This document shows positions 41,158-48,379 of a DNA stretch of 64,000 nt, piece after piece. The position numbers and the translations under genes are program-made. Within the stretch, counting starts at the first letter, position 1. Every line of letters starts with the position of its first letter. This DNA comes from Sphingomonas hankyongi (lineage in GTDB: Bacteria > Pseudomonadota > Alphaproteobacteria > Sphingomonadales > Sphingomonadaceae). The stretch spans positions 248,001-312,000 of the forward strand of contig NZ_JAMGBE010000003.1 of NCBI RefSeq assembly GCF_023516575.1, in the 5' to 3' direction. The notes under the pieces are model-generated. The model ran no database searches, had not been told where the DNA came from, and saw only the letters and a program-made list of their open reading frames with translations.

Positions 41158-41915
41158 GCCAGGCCCGCAAGGCATTGAGGCTTCGCGCGGAAGTCCCTGC
41201 GCGGGTACCGAATACAGCGATGATCATGGCCGCAGGACTGGGCAAGAGGATGCGCCCGCTGACGGCCACGAAGCCGAAGCCGCTGATCGAAGTCGCGGGG
41301 AAGGCGCTGCTCGACCATGTGCTCGAGCGGCTGCGGATCGCTGGCGTCCAAAGGGTCGTCGTCAATGTCCACTACCTCGCGGACGCGCTCGAGGCGCATC
41401 TCTCGAGCCGGGCAAGCGGCCTCGAGATCGTCATTTCGGACGAACGGTCGCTTTTGCTCGAAACCGGGGGCGGGCTCGTCAAGGCCGCGCCGCTGATCGA
41501 CAGCGATCCGTTCCTCGCGATCAATAGCGACAATCTATGGATCGATGGCCCTGCCGACACCCTGAAGCTGCTCGCCTCGCAATGGGACGATGAGAGGATG
41601 GACGCGCTCCTTCTGCTGGTGCCGCTCGCGCGCGCCGAGAATCATCATGGGATTGGCGATTTCCATATGGACCGCACGGGCCGCGTGAGGCGACGCGCGA
41701 AGAGCCATGTCGCGCCGTTCGTCTTCACTGGCGTTCAGATGGTGTCGAAGCGCCTGCTGCGCGATGCGCCGGATGGGCCGTTCTCGACGAACATCCTCTG
41801 GAATCGCGCCATCGATGAGGGGCGCTGCTTCGGGGCCGTTCACCAGGGCCTGTGGTTCGACGTCGGGACTCCGACGTCTATCCCTCTGACGGAAGCTGCG
41901 CTGCAGGATGCCTGA
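41154..41915 (+). CDS. murU: N-acetylmuramate alpha-1-phosphate uridylyltransferase MurU
   Basis: MurU converts MurNAc-1-phosphate and UTP to UDP-MurNAc. The 253-aa protein shows the sugar nucleotidyltransferase signature AAGLGKRMRPLTATKPKPLIEV and the Asp-containing INSDNLWID. After an N-terminal 18 residues the core begins at MIMAAGLGKR; the annotated ATG is supported by its overlap with amgK. It resembles mannose-1-phosphate guanylyltransferases too, but the AmgK neighbour decides for MurU. addB overlaps its end by eight bases. Confidence 0.92.
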   Translation: MSQARKALRLRAEVPARVPNTAMIMAAGLGKRMRPLTATKPKPLIEVAGKALLDHVLERLRIAGVQRVVVNVHYLADALEAHLSSRASGLEIVISDERSLLLETGGGLVKAAPLIDSDPFLAINSDNLWIDGPADTLKLLASQWDDERMDALLLLVPLARAENHHGIGDFHMDRTGRVRRRAKSHVAPFVFTGVQMVSKRLLRDAPDGPFSTNILWNRAIDEGRCFGAVHQGLWFDVGTPTSIPLTEAALQDA

Positions 41916-44784
41916 CCGGGCCGCGGAGCGACCCGCCGTCTATTCGATTCCGGGCCATCGTTCGTTCGCCGATTCACTTGCGGCAGGCCTTCTGCAGCGC
42001 TTCGGAGCGGAGCCGCTCGGGCTGGCGCGGGGCCGGATACTCTTGCCGAACAACCGCGCCGTGCGCGCAGTCACCGACGCGTTCGTGCGGGTCAGCGGGA
42101 CCGGATTGTTGCTGCCGCGACTGATTCCGATAGGCGATCCGCAGCTGGACGAGAGAATTGGCGGTGCGCTGGAGGTCATCGACGATGAGCCGATCCCAGC
42201 CGCGATCGACCCGCTCGAACGACTGCTGACGCTCATCGGCCTGGTGCGGCTTGGCGACGAGAGCACTGCGGAGGCAGCGCGCCTTTCGGGAGAGGTCGGT
42301 CGAACGCTCGATGCATTGCAGATCGAGGACATCGATCCGCCCCAGCTGCGAACCGCCGTCGCGGAGACCGACGATCTTGCGAACCACTGGGAGAAATCGC
42401 TCTCAAGGCTACAGAAAGTCATAGAAAAATGGCCTGTCGTCTTGGCGCAGCGTGGCAGGATCGATCTCACCGAGAGGCGAAACCGCCTGCTACGCCGGCT
42501 TGCCGATCGCTGGCGCGATAGCCCGCCCGAAGGATTCACCGTCGCTGCCGGCATCACCACGGCTGCGCCGGCGGTGGCCGCCTTGATGGCACGCGTAGCG
42601 TATATGCCTGGCGGAATGGTCGTGCTTCCCGCCCTGAGCCTGGCGGATGTCATGCCGGACGAGGAATGGGATGTGCTCGGGTCGGAACAGACGCACCCGC
42701 AATTCCACCTGAAGCTGATGCTCGACCGGATGGGCGTGGCACGGGGCGAGGTCGAGCCGTGGCGCAACGCGGGTCGTTCGGCCTCATCGGCGAAGCGCGG
42801 GCGCGCCGTCGCCAATGCGATGACCGCACCGGATTTCTCCCACAAATGGGAGCACCTGCCCGCCCCTGAGCGGCGGCTGACCGGAATCCGCCTTGCGGAA
42901 TTACCCGATCCCGCCTCCGAAGCGCAGGCCATCGCCCTGGCCTTGCGCGAGGCGCTCGAAACCCCAGGCAGGACGGCTGCGCTCGTGACTCCCGACCGGC
43001 ATCTCGCGAGGCGTGTGTCAGCGCTGCTCGCGCGATGGGACATCGCGGCAGACGACAGTGCCGGCACGCCGCTGTCCGAGACGCCCGCAGGGACGCTGCT
43101 TCTGGGCATTGCCAGCGCAGCGGCCGAGGAACTGGCGCCTGTCCCATTGATGTCCCTGGCCAAGCATCCACTCGTCGGCGGAGAGGGTGAGGAGCGGGTT
43201 CGTTGGCTCGACGTCGTGCGCGCCCTCGATCGCGCATTGAGAGGGCCGCGGCCTGCGCCGGGACTGGCGGGGCTGGACGCGCATTTCGGGGAGAAGAAGG
43301 TCACGGGCCGCTGGGAGCCGGTGCGCCGCAAGATACAGCTTTTGCAGGATCTGATTACCGGTCCCGTCTCCCTCGCCGACTTCGCGACCCATTTGGTCGA
43401 AGCGGTCGAGAGCCTTGCTTCTGACAGGGCGTGGCGTGGTCCGGCGGGTCGCGCTGCCGCGGAGTTGCTTGGCGGCTTGCAGGCTTCAGAAACGGCTCGC
43501 ACCCTCACGATCGAGCCAACGGACGCGCTCCCTTTATTGCGCCAGCTGCTCAGTGCTCAGTCCATTCGCCCGCCCTATGGCGGGCATCCCCGCATCTCTA
43601 TCTGGGGCTTGCTCGAAGCACGGCTGCAGCACGCGGACCTCATCGTGCTCGGGGGCCTTAACGAGGGTGTCTGGCCGGCCTTGCCATCGCCGGATCCCTG
43701 GTTGCCCCCCAAGGTGCGATCGGCGCTCGGCATGCCGGGGCTCGAATTCCGCATCGGCCTGTCCGCTCACGACTTCGCCAGTGCGCTTGGAGCTCCCCAG
43801 GTGTTGATTACCCGGGCTCGTCGAGACGGACGCTCGCCAACCGTCGCCTCGCGCTTCCTCCTTCGCCTGCAGGCAATGACCGGGGGTCTGGCGCACGACG
43901 TGCGGCTTGAGCGAATGACAGCGGTGCTCGACGATCCGGGGATGCCGCGACCTGTCAGCCGTCCCGCCCCGCAGCCGCCTGTCGAACAGCGTCCGGATCG
44001 AATTTCCATCACCTCGGTAGATCGGCTCAACGCGGACCCTTTCGCCTTCTACGCGCAGGCAATCCTCAAATTGCGCGCGCTGGATCCGGTCGACGACGAC
44101 CATACGGCGCGATGGAAGGGCACGGCCGTTCACCAGGTCTTCGAAGACTGGCTTCAAGAAGACGATTGCGATCCCGCTAAGCTTCGAGGCCGTGCCGAGC
44201 AGCTGCTTGCGGGCGAGGCGATCCACCCGATGCTGAGAGCGTTATGGGCTCCGCGTCTCCTCGAAGCGATCGACTGGATGGCCGAACTCGAGCGAGCCAA
44301 TCGAAAAGCGGGAAGGCGGCCTCTTGCGGCGGAGATCTCGGGCGAGGCCAGCCTAGCTGGCATCACCGTGCACGGACGTGCCGACCGGATCGATCGGCTC
44401 GCGGACGGCGGCATAGCGATCATCGATTACAAGACCGGCGCTCCGCCGCGACAAAAGGCCGTGGATGCCGGGTTTGCCCTGCAGCTCGGCTTGCTGGGAC
44501 TGATTGCTCGCGCCGGCGGGTTCGAGGGCGTGAGCGGTGAACCCGAAGCATTCGAATATTGGTCGCTTACCCGGCACAAGGGCCGTTTCGGCAAGCTAAT
44601 GCGGGCTGACGAGAAGACTGGCGCTGACGAATTCTTGGCGCGGAGCTATTTTGCCTTCGCCCGCGCGGCGCAGAGATGGCTTACGGGCACCGAGCCGTTC
44701 ACGGCAAAGCTGAACCCGGCCTATGCGCCCTATGGCGACTATGACCAGCTCATGCGGCTGGAGGAATGGTACGGCCGCGGATGA
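41908..44784 (+). CDS. addB: AddB subunit of the AddAB double-strand-break repair helicase-nuclease
   Basis: AddB processes double-strand ends with AddA and recognises the Chi-like sequence. The 958-aa protein has an inactivated helicase-like middle (SLSLADVMPDEEWDVLG...) and a C-terminal PD-(D/E)xK nuclease with AIIDYKTGAP. The expected Cys residues of an Fe-S cluster are not evident in the C-terminal region, as in other alphaproteobacterial AddBs. The start overlaps murU. A 47-aa minus-strand gene lies between its end and addA. Confidence 0.93.
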   Translation: MPDRAAERPAVYSIPGHRSFADSLAAGLLQRFGAEPLGLARGRILLPNNRAVRAVTDAFVRVSGTGLLLPRLIPIGDPQLDERIGGALEVIDDEPIPAAIDPLERLLTLIGLVRLGDESTAEAARLSGEVGRTLDALQIEDIDPPQLRTAVAETDDLANHWEKSLSRLQKVIEKWPVVLAQRGRIDLTERRNRLLRRLADRWRDSPPEGFTVAAGITTAAPAVAALMARVAYMPGGMVVLPALSLADVMPDEEWDVLGSEQTHPQFHLKLMLDRMGVARGEVEPWRNAGRSASSAKRGRAVANAMTAPDFSHKWEHLPAPERRLTGIRLAELPDPASEAQAIALALREALETPGRTAALVTPDRHLARRVSALLARWDIAADDSAGTPLSETPAGTLLLGIASAAAEELAPVPLMSLAKHPLVGGEGEERVRWLDVVRALDRALRGPRPAPGLAGLDAHFGEKKVTGRWEPVRRKIQLLQDLITGPVSLADFATHLVEAVESLASDRAWRGPAGRAAAELLGGLQASETARTLTIEPTDALPLLRQLLSAQSIRPPYGGHPRISIWGLLEARLQHADLIVLGGLNEGVWPALPSPDPWLPPKVRSALGMPGLEFRIGLSAHDFASALGAPQVLITRARRDGRSPTVASRFLLRLQAMTGGLAHDVRLERMTAVLDDPGMPRPVSRPAPQPPVEQRPDRISITSVDRLNADPFAFYAQAILKLRALDPVDDDHTARWKGTAVHQVFEDWLQEDDCDPAKLRGRAEQLLAGEAIHPMLRALWAPRLLEAIDWMAELERANRKAGRRPLAAEISGEASLAGITVHGRADRIDRLADGGIAIIDYKTGAPPRQKAVDAGFALQLGLLGLIARAGGFEGVSGEPEAFEYWSLTRHKGRFGKLMRADEKTGADEFLARSYFAFARAAQRWLTGTEPFTAKLNPAYAPYGDYDQLMRLEEWYGRG

Positions 44785-44792
44785 GGAGCAGC

Positions 44793-44936
44793 TTAGCGCT
44801 TCGGCTTTTTCTTGACCTTGGACGCGTAAAGCAGGGCTGCGACGATCGCCGCCGAGCCGATGCCGACCGCGACGCCTGCCTTCACCAGTTTCTGGCGGCG
44901 TTCCTCACTCGCTTTTTCGGATTCGTCATTGGTCAT
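44793..44936 (-). CDS. 47-aa single-pass membrane microprotein, antisense between addB and addA
   Basis: An ATG at 44936 opens a complete 47-codon frame ending at TAA 44793. The product begins MTNDESEKASEERRQK (charged helix), continues with a 19-residue hydrophobic segment (VAVGIGSAAIVAALLY) and ends KVKKKPKR, a positively charged tail that would orient it. It uses the usual codons of the neighbourhood, and no plus-strand reading frame of this length competes. No family is recognised. It lies opposite to every gene around it and occupies nearly the entire addB-addA gap. Confidence 0.65.
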   Translation of the reverse strand: MTNDESEKASEERRQKLVKAGVAVGIGSAAIVAALLYASKVKKKPKR

Positions 44937-44977
44937 GCCTCGGTCTGTATGGTGAACGGCGAAGATTGGGAAGCGGC

Positions 44978-47900
44978 GTGACCGCGCGTTTCAGGCCACT
45001 TCCGGAACTCGATCCCACACAGGCGAGCGCTGCCGATCCGGGGGCGCATGCGGCGCTTTCGGCATCCGCCGGGACAGGAAAAACTCAAGTCCTGACGGCG
45101 CGGGTCTTACGACTGCTTTTGCAGGGCGCGCGCCCGGAATCGATCCTGTGCCTGACGTTCACAAAGGCAGCTGCGGCGGAAATGGCGAACCGCGTGGGGG
45201 CACGCCTGGCAAGCTGGGTCCGGCTGAAAGACAGCGAGCTGGGCACGGATCTGCTCCACGTGCGCGAATGCAACGATCCGGCCACACGGCAACGCGCTCG
45301 CCAATTGTTCGCCAAAGTGCTGGATTGCCCCGGCGGGCTCAAGATCCAGACGATCCACAGCTTCGCTCAGTCCTTGCTTGCTGCATTTCCGATGGAAGCC
45401 GGGATCATACCTGGCTTCCAGCCGATCGAGGGGCGCGCGGAGCAGGAACTCGTGCGCCGCACGCTTGCAGACCTTTTGACCGATGCAGAAGCGAGCGGCG
45501 ACGCGCAATTGATCAAGGATGTTCAGTGCCTGAGCCGCCGTCTCGGCGAGACCGGCGCAGTTGAGTATCTGCAAGTCTGTGCCAGGCGCTCCGATGCGCT
45601 TGGCTCCATTGGACCGCGAGATGCGATCGAGCCGACTGTGCGGCGGATGATGGACCTGCCCGAAGGATCCCCGGAAGAATATATCGCGGCCAATTGCGGC
45701 GATGAGGGCTTCGACTGCGAGCTCCTGCGGGCAGTTGCGGACGCCAATCGCAGATGGGGCGCGCAAACCGGAATCGCGCACGCTGAGGCTATCGAAGAGT
45801 GGCTCGGGCTCACCCCCATCGAGCGGGCGGCGCAACTCCAGAAGCTCCGCAAGGTCGTTCTAACCGAAAAGCAGACGCTTCGGGTTTCAGCGGGCCAGAC
45901 CAAGGCCGAACCGCACTATGAATCCCACGCCGGGCGCTTGGCCAATCTGATCGGAGAGCTGCTGCGTATCCAGAACGGTGCACGCATCGCCGCCGACATG
46001 GCGGCGGGGCTGCGCGCAGGTCAGGCCTTCGCAGCCGCTTACACGCGTGCAAAGCGCACCGCCGGCGTCGCGGATTTCAACGACCTGATTGATTGGACCC
46101 GACGACTGCTCGCTACGCCAGGGATGGGCGACTGGGTCCGCTACAAGCTCGACAGGCAGATCGATCATGTGCTGATCGACGAGGCCCAGGACACCAACGC
46201 CGACCAATGGGAAATCGTTCGTCACCTCGTCGATGAATTTTTCACCGGTGCGAGCGAAAGCGAGGCTCGGTGGCGCACTCTTTTCACCGTGGGGGACTTC
46301 AAGCAGGCGATCTACGGCTTCCAGGGAACCGATCCCTCCGAATTCGACCGCGCGCGTCGTGACTTCCGGGCAAAGTCCAATGCATTGCGCGATGCCGAGG
46401 ACTTGTTTGACGTAGCTGCGCAGCGGGCGCTTGAATTTCGCGACCTGTCGATCGCCGCCAGTTTCAGGTCGGCGCAGCCCGTCCTCGATACCGTCGATGC
46501 AGTGATCGATGAGCTGGGTTACGCATCGCTGGGGTTGCCGGACCAGCCCCCGGCGCATCGCGCGTTCCATTCCGCCCGGCCAGGGCAGGTTGAGCTCTGG
46601 AAGCCCTTCGCTTTTGACGAGATCGAGGACGATGAGGAGGAGGGCGAAGAGCGTTGGGTAGATGTGCGCGACCGCATGTACGCCGGCCAGCTTGCGCAGC
46701 GGATCCGAGACCTTGTCGAGGAGGCTCCGGCGCTCGCTTCCACGGGACGCCAGCTGAGCCCAGGCGACATCCTAGTCCTCGTAAGAAGCCGGGGCGAATT
46801 GGCCTCGCTGCTGGTCGCGCGCCTGTTCTCGGCGGGTGTGCCCGTTGCCGGCCTCGACCGGCTGCATCTGCATGAGCCGCTTGCGGTCCAGGATTTGCTC
46901 GCCGCCGTTCGTTTTGCGGTCCAGCCGTCCGACGATCTTAGCCTTGCCTGCCTTCTCGTCTCTCCACTCTTTGGCTGGGACCAGGACCAGCTCCGCGAGC
47001 TCGCTTATGGTCGTGATGGCAGTCTTTGGTCTGAGCTGCGCGACCGTGCGGCAGAGGGCCTATTGTTCGAGCGGGCGCGCGCGCAGCTGTCCGAGCTGCT
47101 CCGGATCGCCGACTTCGTCACGCCTTCGCGTTTCCTCGAGACGATACTGACCGGCCCACTTCAGGGCAGGCGTAAGCTTTACTCCCGCCTTGGAATGGCG
47201 TCGCGCGATCCGATCGATGAGCTGATGAACAGCGCGCTCGAGTTCGAGCGCAACGAGACTTCGTCGCTAGACGGGTTCCTGTCCTGGTTCTCGCGGGGGG
47301 AAGTGGACATGCAGCGCGACCCTGGGATGCCGGCCAACGAAGTGCGCGTCATGACGGTGCATGGCGCCAAGGGCCTGGAGGCTCCTGTCGTCATTCTCGC
47401 CGATGCCACCGCCGATCCCGCCCGTCTGGGCCGGACTCCGCTGAGCGTGGATTTTCCTTTCCCGGAGGTCGGCACGCTCCCGTTCGTCCGCCCTAAGAAG
47501 GATGAGCGAATTTCGCCCTTCGCCGAGTTGATCGCGCTGCAGGAACAGCGGGACCTCGAAGAGCATTGGAGGCTCCTTTACGTCGCAATGACACGGGCTG
47601 CGGACAGGCTTATCGTTGCCGGTGTTGCTCCGACGAAGGACCTCCCTGCGAACTGCTGGCATCGCGCCGTCGAGCGAGGTCTAACCTCTCTTGGAGCGAC
47701 CGAGAACGAAGGGGGCGGACTAGTCCATGGCGGCGGTGTGGCGTCCATACCTCGGTCGCGTCCGACCAAGCCGCAACTGCCTTCGATCTTCATTCCTTCC
47801 TGGGCTGTTCAGGCGGCGCCCAAGGAGGCGCGTCCACCGCAGCCGCTTGCACCCTCTGCTGTGGCTGTCGACGATGAAGCGGCGCTTCCTCCAAGCGATG

Positions 47901-48379
47901 CGATGCGCGCGGCGGCACGTAGAGGCGTGCTGATCCACCAACTGCTGGAGCGTTTGCCGGCCGTAGCCGCGGACGAGCGTCGTGCGGCCGCATTGCGGTG
48001 GCTCGAGCGTAGCGGCGGGGTCACCGATCCCGGCGAGCGGGACGAACTCACACAGCTGGTCTGCCGGCTTGTTGCCGACCCGCGCTTTTCGGCACTTTTC
48101 GGTCCTCAGTCGTTAGGCGAGGCACCCCTTGCGGCAACACTGCCGGACGGGCGTGTGATTGCGGGCACCGTCGACCGATTGCTGGTGAGCGATGACGAAG
48201 TCCAGGTGATCGACTTCAAGACGGGCAGGGTACCGACAAACGAAGAGCAGATTCCGGCCTCTCACCGTGCCCAGATGAGCGCCTATGTCGAAGCGCTCAG
48301 AATAATCTTCCCCGGTCGGCTAGTCCGCGCGACCTTGCTTTATACGGCCGGCCCGCAGCTGTTTGAACTTGCGGCTTGA
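44978..48379 (+). CDS. addA: AddA subunit of the AddAB helicase-nuclease
   Basis: AddA is the UvrD-type motor of the AddAB complex and a second nuclease. The 1133-aa product has Walker [16 protein letters not shown], helicase motifs [45 protein letters not shown], and a later [19 protein letters not shown] and [13 protein letters not shown]. The C-terminal nuclease site is [14 protein letters not shown] 44978 is preferred over TTG 44966, since it has a GGGAAG-like site and gives a family-like N-terminus. trxA follows after 59 bases. Confidence 0.95.

Follow-up and report, generated by a model that had tools for sequence, protein, structure and literature searches.

The window analysed here, a 64,000-nucleotide stretch of the Sphingomonas hankyongi genome (an assembly of 2.5 Mb in 8 contigs), contains a short open reading frame (ORF) that lies between addB and addA on the strand opposite to both (Table 1). 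The frame is complete, running on the minus strand from an ATG at 44936 to a TAA at 44793-44795, and its product is a 47-aa protein, MTNDESEKASEERRQKLVKAGVAVGIGSAAIVAALLYASKVKKKPKR. The flanking genes encode AddB and AddA of the alphaproteobacterial type, as judged from their matches to TIGR02786 and TIGR02784. The earlier note had put 42 bases between the starts of the ORF and addA, which agrees with an addA start at the GTG at 44978 and a 41-nt gap separating the start codons. The ORF-calling tool opens the longest addA frame at a TTG at 44966; relatives with the same spacer favour the GTG, and several relatives sharing the 41-nt spacer have an ATG at the position of the addA start. The terminator-like stem at the end of addB is not above chance (one found, with a shuffle mean of 0.7).

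Table 1. Features at the addB-addA junction, in window coordinates
Feature	Position	Strand	Basis and remarks
addB	41908..44784	+	TIGR02786, 838.8 bits; stop 8 nt from the ORF stop, tail to tail
Weak terminator-like stem at the end of addB, overlapping the ORF 3' end	44785..44802	+	One found; shuffle mean 0.7
47-aa membrane microprotein gene, ATG to TAA	44793..44936	-	Open frame, genus-wide conservation, frame-specific selection
Predicted membrane helix codons, residues 20-38 (AGVAVGIGSAAIVAALLYA)	44823..44879	-	Column conservation, AlphaFold2 helix; membrane boundaries estimated
Spacer between the divergent ORF and addA starts, 41 nt	44937..44977	.	41 nt in 22 of 57 measured loci, some genomes counted twice
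Second box of the promoter-like element, CATACA (CATAGA in relatives)	44946..44951	-	16 nt after the first box, 9 nt before the ATG; recurs elsewhere
First box of the promoter-like element, CTTCCC	44968..44973	-	Sequence; conserved in relatives
addA, GTG start	44978..48379	+	TIGR02784, 1054.1 bits; start from comparison with relatives

Placement of the ORF and a promoter-like element

Matches to the addA start and to the profile of the microprotein family are each present in 60 of 61 genomes of the genus, in searches (addA start, family profile and placement) that were not conditioned on the protein motif; the profile match lies directly upstream of addA and on the opposite strand in 60 of 60 genomes, with 18-119 nt between the matches, bearing out the antisense placement described in the earlier note. 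The sole genus genome without both matches, G631, is in about 120 contigs, so that loss and an assembly gap are indistinguishable there. The stop codons of addB and the ORF are separated by 1-8 nt in 43 of 56 loci, and some relatives have longer ORF-addA spacers of 65-112 nt. The spacer measurement took loci in both orientations and covers 57 of 58, L181 being left out where the motif pattern missed the ORF that the profile finds in its genome (G586); the detailed placement listing took one orientation only and omitted 11 of 31 loci.

Among the best 80 named loci, the ORF lies between addB and addA (or part of addA) in 27, five more (L080, L081, L103, L107 and L114) have addA, addB or both nearby with intervening genes or just one of the two found, and 48 have neither gene in the flank examined. 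There are two main neighbourhoods: the addB-addA pair, and an EF-hand protein plus adenylosuccinate lyase. The latter was seen in 30 loci of Sphingobium and its relatives, where the ORF is beside the adenylosuccinate lyase gene and a gene for an opposite-strand EF-hand protein; the domain search for these two neighbours used one representative (L097, L097:5236-7262). In L079, one of the 27, a response-regulator gene and more lie between the ORF and addB. The genes found at the addB-addA junction of L107 include one for a prolyl-oligopeptidase-type hydrolase and, next to the ORF relative, a separate one for a glycine-zipper protein. With different inserts in L103, L107, L114 and L079, the junction looks like a tolerated insertion site.

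In loci of other genera, an addA start comes before the addB stop codon has ended in 25 of 27 cases, the exceptions being L051 and L058; the count is drawn from the 30 best-scoring loci of 117 matched genomes and excludes two genus loci as well as L032, for which no addB was found. This overlap supports the earlier view that the ORF interrupts an otherwise continuous addB-addA, and because of it we regard the placement as derived: the gene and its promoter would have entered an addB-addA pair that originally overlapped, and would then have been retained throughout the genus. Of the two points that the earlier note had proposed to check in relatives, conservation is borne out, and a place next to addA is confined to the genus and its near relatives, so placement carries no implied function with AddAB.

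The two-box element in the spacer (Table 1) recurs on the ORF strand in relatives. CATAGA is present on that strand in 18 of 41 distinct spacers and on the addA strand in none (shuffles: mean 0.57, maximum 4); since the spacers share descent, the 18 occurrences reflect conservation and are not independent events. Among 41 distinct addAB-type upstreams, 14 have a CATAG-type box that ends 10 nt before the ATG; in other neighbourhoods 28 of 66 upstreams have such a box ending 10-12 nt before the ATG, preceded there by CTTTTC or a similar box. Across the 61 genus genomes the exact pattern CTTYCM-N16-CATAGA has 30 matches in 29 genomes, against 2 for the reversed control pattern, and by coordinate comparison 16 of the 30 fall in the ORF-addA spacer; the second box of the window is one base off, which takes it outside the exact pattern. 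Near-identical matches recur at two other places, in three genomes each: G607, G598 and G599 at one, and G587, G633 and G598 at the other. A sigma-70 scan of 44600-45200 gave no promoter, neither strand of the spacers has a TTGACA-like box that stands out, and an EcfG-type general stress motif occurs in 0 of 100 upstreams, with 0.38 expected from shuffles. A relaxed form of the element precedes 1 of the 60 genes called in the window, making a general promoter unlikely.

We weighed whether the box serves addA, to which its distance varies less (sd 7.4 nt, versus 11.9 nt to the ORF; 35 spacers), and set this aside in favour of the ORF strand because the element also precedes the gene in the adenylosuccinate-lyase neighbourhood, where addA was not found in the flank. 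Recurrence in two unrelated neighbourhoods predicts an independent, nearly leaderless ORF transcript; the ORF is predicted to have its own promoter and a transcript leader of a few bases, and it is from this conserved promoter-like element that we infer minus-strand transcription.

An opposite-strand gene within an otherwise continuous pair is the layout that a noncontiguous operon would need. In such an operon addB and addA would still be co-transcribed through the antisense ORF, and the ORF mRNA would be both a message and an antisense RNA that tunes AddAB through polymerase collision or RNase III. The gaps at both ends of the ORF are tiny (1-8 nt between stops in most loci, often just 41 nt between starts), so that one sees no obvious sign of a separate terminator or of an addA promoter, and the terminator search at the end of addB gave none above chance; the tight spacing implies either that the addA promoter is hidden antisense to the ORF or that addA is still reached from addB. 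The inverted placement is also retained in every one of the 60 genus genomes with a match. There is a precedent in the menE-menC-MW1733-ytkD-MW1731 genes of Staphylococcus aureus, for which co-transcription with RNase III processing has been reported (PMC7154746); the likeness is that of an opposite-strand gene inside an otherwise continuous pair, whereas the S. aureus genes are unrelated to addB-ORF-addA, and both processes would here be predictions. Against this, the 65-112 nt spacers of some relatives could house a promoter belonging to addA, and larger pieces separate addB and addA in L079, L103, L107 and L114. On balance we think this reading rather unlikely, and it is compatible with our preferred explanation of an independent membrane microprotein gene.

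It is much harder to see the ORF protein as one that partners or regulates the AddAB nuclease, with its basic tail tethering AddAB to the membrane, a reading we hold to be very improbable. The place beside addA is fixed within the genus and the ORF is near addB or addA in the five further loci given above, but the 48 loci of the best 80 that lack addA and addB in the flank come from a bacterial family in which addA itself was found in 117 of 119 genomes, and the ORF gene is on the opposite strand. The different neighbours elsewhere make a role in AddAB unlikely.

The protein and its family

The membrane segment and Lys-rich tail that the earlier note had read from the window are supported by comparison among relatives. 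Near-invariant residues make up G21-x3-G25-x3-A29-x3-A33 and GSAA-x2-AALLY. The conserved G21/G25/A29/A33 face is held within the predicted helix, its G, G, A and A being present in 78, 78, 81 and 80 of 81 family members; the head is of variable length, with many charged residues and alanine, and the tail is short and basic. The charge of the C-terminal flank exceeds that of the N-terminal flank in 70 of the 81 members and equals it in 7, the N flank itself being slightly basic (mean +0.85). ORF starts in these comparisons were set by a scripted rule, and L088, for which the rule gave no ATG start, was left out of the 81-member charge and conservation analysis and of the pooled pN/pS below. 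One predicted hydrophobic helix, flanked by unequal charge, points to a single-pass membrane protein, probably of the inner membrane; judging from charge, the N terminus would be outside and the basic C terminus cytoplasmic. AlphaFold2 predicts one helix spanning residues 3-42 (mean pLDDT 75.3, pTM 0.29), a model that says little beyond helicity.

The family, which we call GSAAxxAALLY as a working name, has profile matches at E <= 1e-3 in 159 of 199 genomes of the bacterial family (74 of 96 genera), a count that takes in weaker matches without case-by-case inspection, some of them in longer frames. All but three of the matched genomes (156 of 159) have one match, G110, G153 and G154 have two, and 40 of the 199 have none. 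A single-sequence search matched 174 of the 199 genomes at E <= 1; its best match outside the genome of the window has an E of 4.4e-18, and the best independent match is 84% identical to the ORF product. The reversed-sequence control query gave a best E of 0.0197 and matched 59 of 199 genomes at E <= 1, and the breadth of the family therefore rests on the profile. The window copy has the invariant core and matches the profile with an E of 5.8e-19, being itself part of that profile. Among the best 80 loci, the closest named relatives are Sphingomonas sp. URHD0057, S. daechungensis and several Sphingomonas and Sphingomicrobium bins. A second type, whose head is MTHRPSVPPGSTAPYPAHPAPH, occurs in four loci (L124, L129, L135 and L140). 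In S. psychrophilum AR-3-1 it coexists (L129) with the common type (L120), and that second-type copy is possibly a paralogue.

A wider sample of the class, 385 genomes, gave matches at E <= 0.01 in 14. Five are from the same bacterial family; the other nine (E 0.0027-0.0096) lie inside frames of 293-1297 aa and were taken as chance, leaving no credible match outside the bacterial family in this sample. The search scored up to 15 candidates per genome and may therefore have missed distant members; within these 385 genomes, the microprotein family appears to be sphingomonad-specific.

Scans against Pfam and NCBIfam, which also covered 31 relatives, accepted no family for the window protein. Its score to Pfam DUF7548 (PF24416), 14.7 bits (E 0.03), is below the gathering cut-off of 27 bits, and it has no match to the LPXTG cell wall anchor model (TIGR01167). 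One relative, from L027, scores 17.0 bits against the TIGR01167 cut-off of 15.9 (E 0.0069), which we take as chance because the sequence has no LPXTG motif and the model is short and hydrophobic. PHROGs gave one weak match only (E 0.14), PDB sequences one match considered chance (E 0.85), PDB folds none, the plasmid collection none at E <= 0.01, PADLOC none to the ORF product, and Rfam none across 44500-45300. Searches of the literature on small proteins of Sphingomonadaceae or Sphingomonas, and on Sphingomonadales signature proteins, did not turn up the family. The signature proteins of Gupta and Mok (2007) are likewise order-limited hypothetical proteins (PMC2241609); in the part of that source available they are given as locus tags, and the microprotein family could not be matched to any of them.

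Small size and a lone hydrophobic helix are also features of a toxic membrane peptide (type I toxin-like) or a daptide-kind RiPP precursor, and 6 of 31 members give weak matches to the NCBIfam model daptide_123 (NF041808; best E 4.7e-4). However, neither the window protein nor 10 members tested match that model (E <= 1 for the window protein), the gene is nearly always single and is retained across 74 genera, PADLOC has no match, no plasmid copy was found, and no Rfam antitoxin RNA was found in 44500-45300; we consider either identity highly improbable.

Coding evidence

The pattern of substitution was examined in 41 distinct coding sequences, which were gathered via the protein motif, so that intactness is there partly by construction. 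In the annotated frame the core pN/pS is 0.174; the other two frames of the ORF strand give 2.2 and 3.2, and the three opposite-strand frames give 0.33, 2.3 and 5.9, the 0.33 belonging to the antisense frame whose codon positions mirror those of the ORF. Mean entropy at codon positions 1, 2 and 3 is 0.31, 0.19 and 1.23, the third position being far the most variable. Frame-specific pN/pS together with this codon-position entropy is, at the level of sequence comparison, the signature of a translated frame. Pooled over the alignable coding sequence of 29 loci, pN/pS is 0.47, weaker than the core value because head and tail vary.

The earlier note had proposed a real gene, one that stops or frameshifts in relatives would count against. 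A profile match in 60 of 61 genus genomes and a core pN/pS of 0.17 in its own frame confirm the former, and 58 of the 60 best matches in the genus run without an internal stop. The two that were flagged are G630 and G636; G630 (locus L179) still yields a complete 47-aa frame. That this is a chance frame held open because the DNA itself or the opposite strand is constrained, as the low value of the mirrored antisense frame might suggest, can be dismissed almost entirely and is already refuted by the comparison of sequences, since the true frame is lower still and varies most, by a wide margin, at position 3, the protein core recurs in relatives whose neighbourhoods are unrelated, and the reversed control fails to reproduce the ORF matches.

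Proposed role and significance

We conclude that the ORF is probably a genuine gene of a membrane microprotein family that is independent of AddAB. For its function we propose that the small-residue face GxxxGxxxAxxxA packs helix on helix, so that the protein would self-associate or dock on a larger membrane protein, and that the Lys/Arg tail would contact anionic lipids or an acidic surface on a partner. As a tentative assignment, the protein would serve a larger membrane protein as its small scaffold or modulator. An envelope job, rather than one in DNA repair, seems most likely: in many relatives the gene lies far from addA, for which reason we favour the envelope over recombination. This is the weakest step of the argument.

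E. coli has small single-pass membrane proteins of under about 50 aa, such as AcrZ and MgtS. The ORF product resembles these in length, in its single hydrophobic helix and in having no other domain, a likeness of architecture alone; unlike them, its family is sphingomonad-only in our sample, has a fixed GxxxGxxxAxxxA-AALLY core, and combines an Asp/Glu-rich head with a Lys/Arg tail. A GxxxG-type packing face is common to the ORF product and the glycine-zipper membrane proteins (PF05433, PF13488), although the window protein has no match to either model at E <= 1.

As a kind the protein is ordinary, a small membrane protein, but it is real and widely kept, and the libraries searched have no family for it. 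With it, a widespread bacterial family gains an unnamed membrane microprotein that is almost always single-copy. A further proposal, which we put forward as a doubtful one, is that the genus carries a noncontiguous operon throughout, in which a captured gene-plus-promoter cassette yields a near-leaderless mRNA that would be both message and antisense regulator. If this were true, expression of the membrane microprotein would set AddAB levels in opposite phase. Because related genera have addB-addA with and without the inserted antisense gene, they offer a natural comparison for antisense effects on addAB, and with the inverted site fixed within addB-addA across one genus, antisense coupling can be tested directly.
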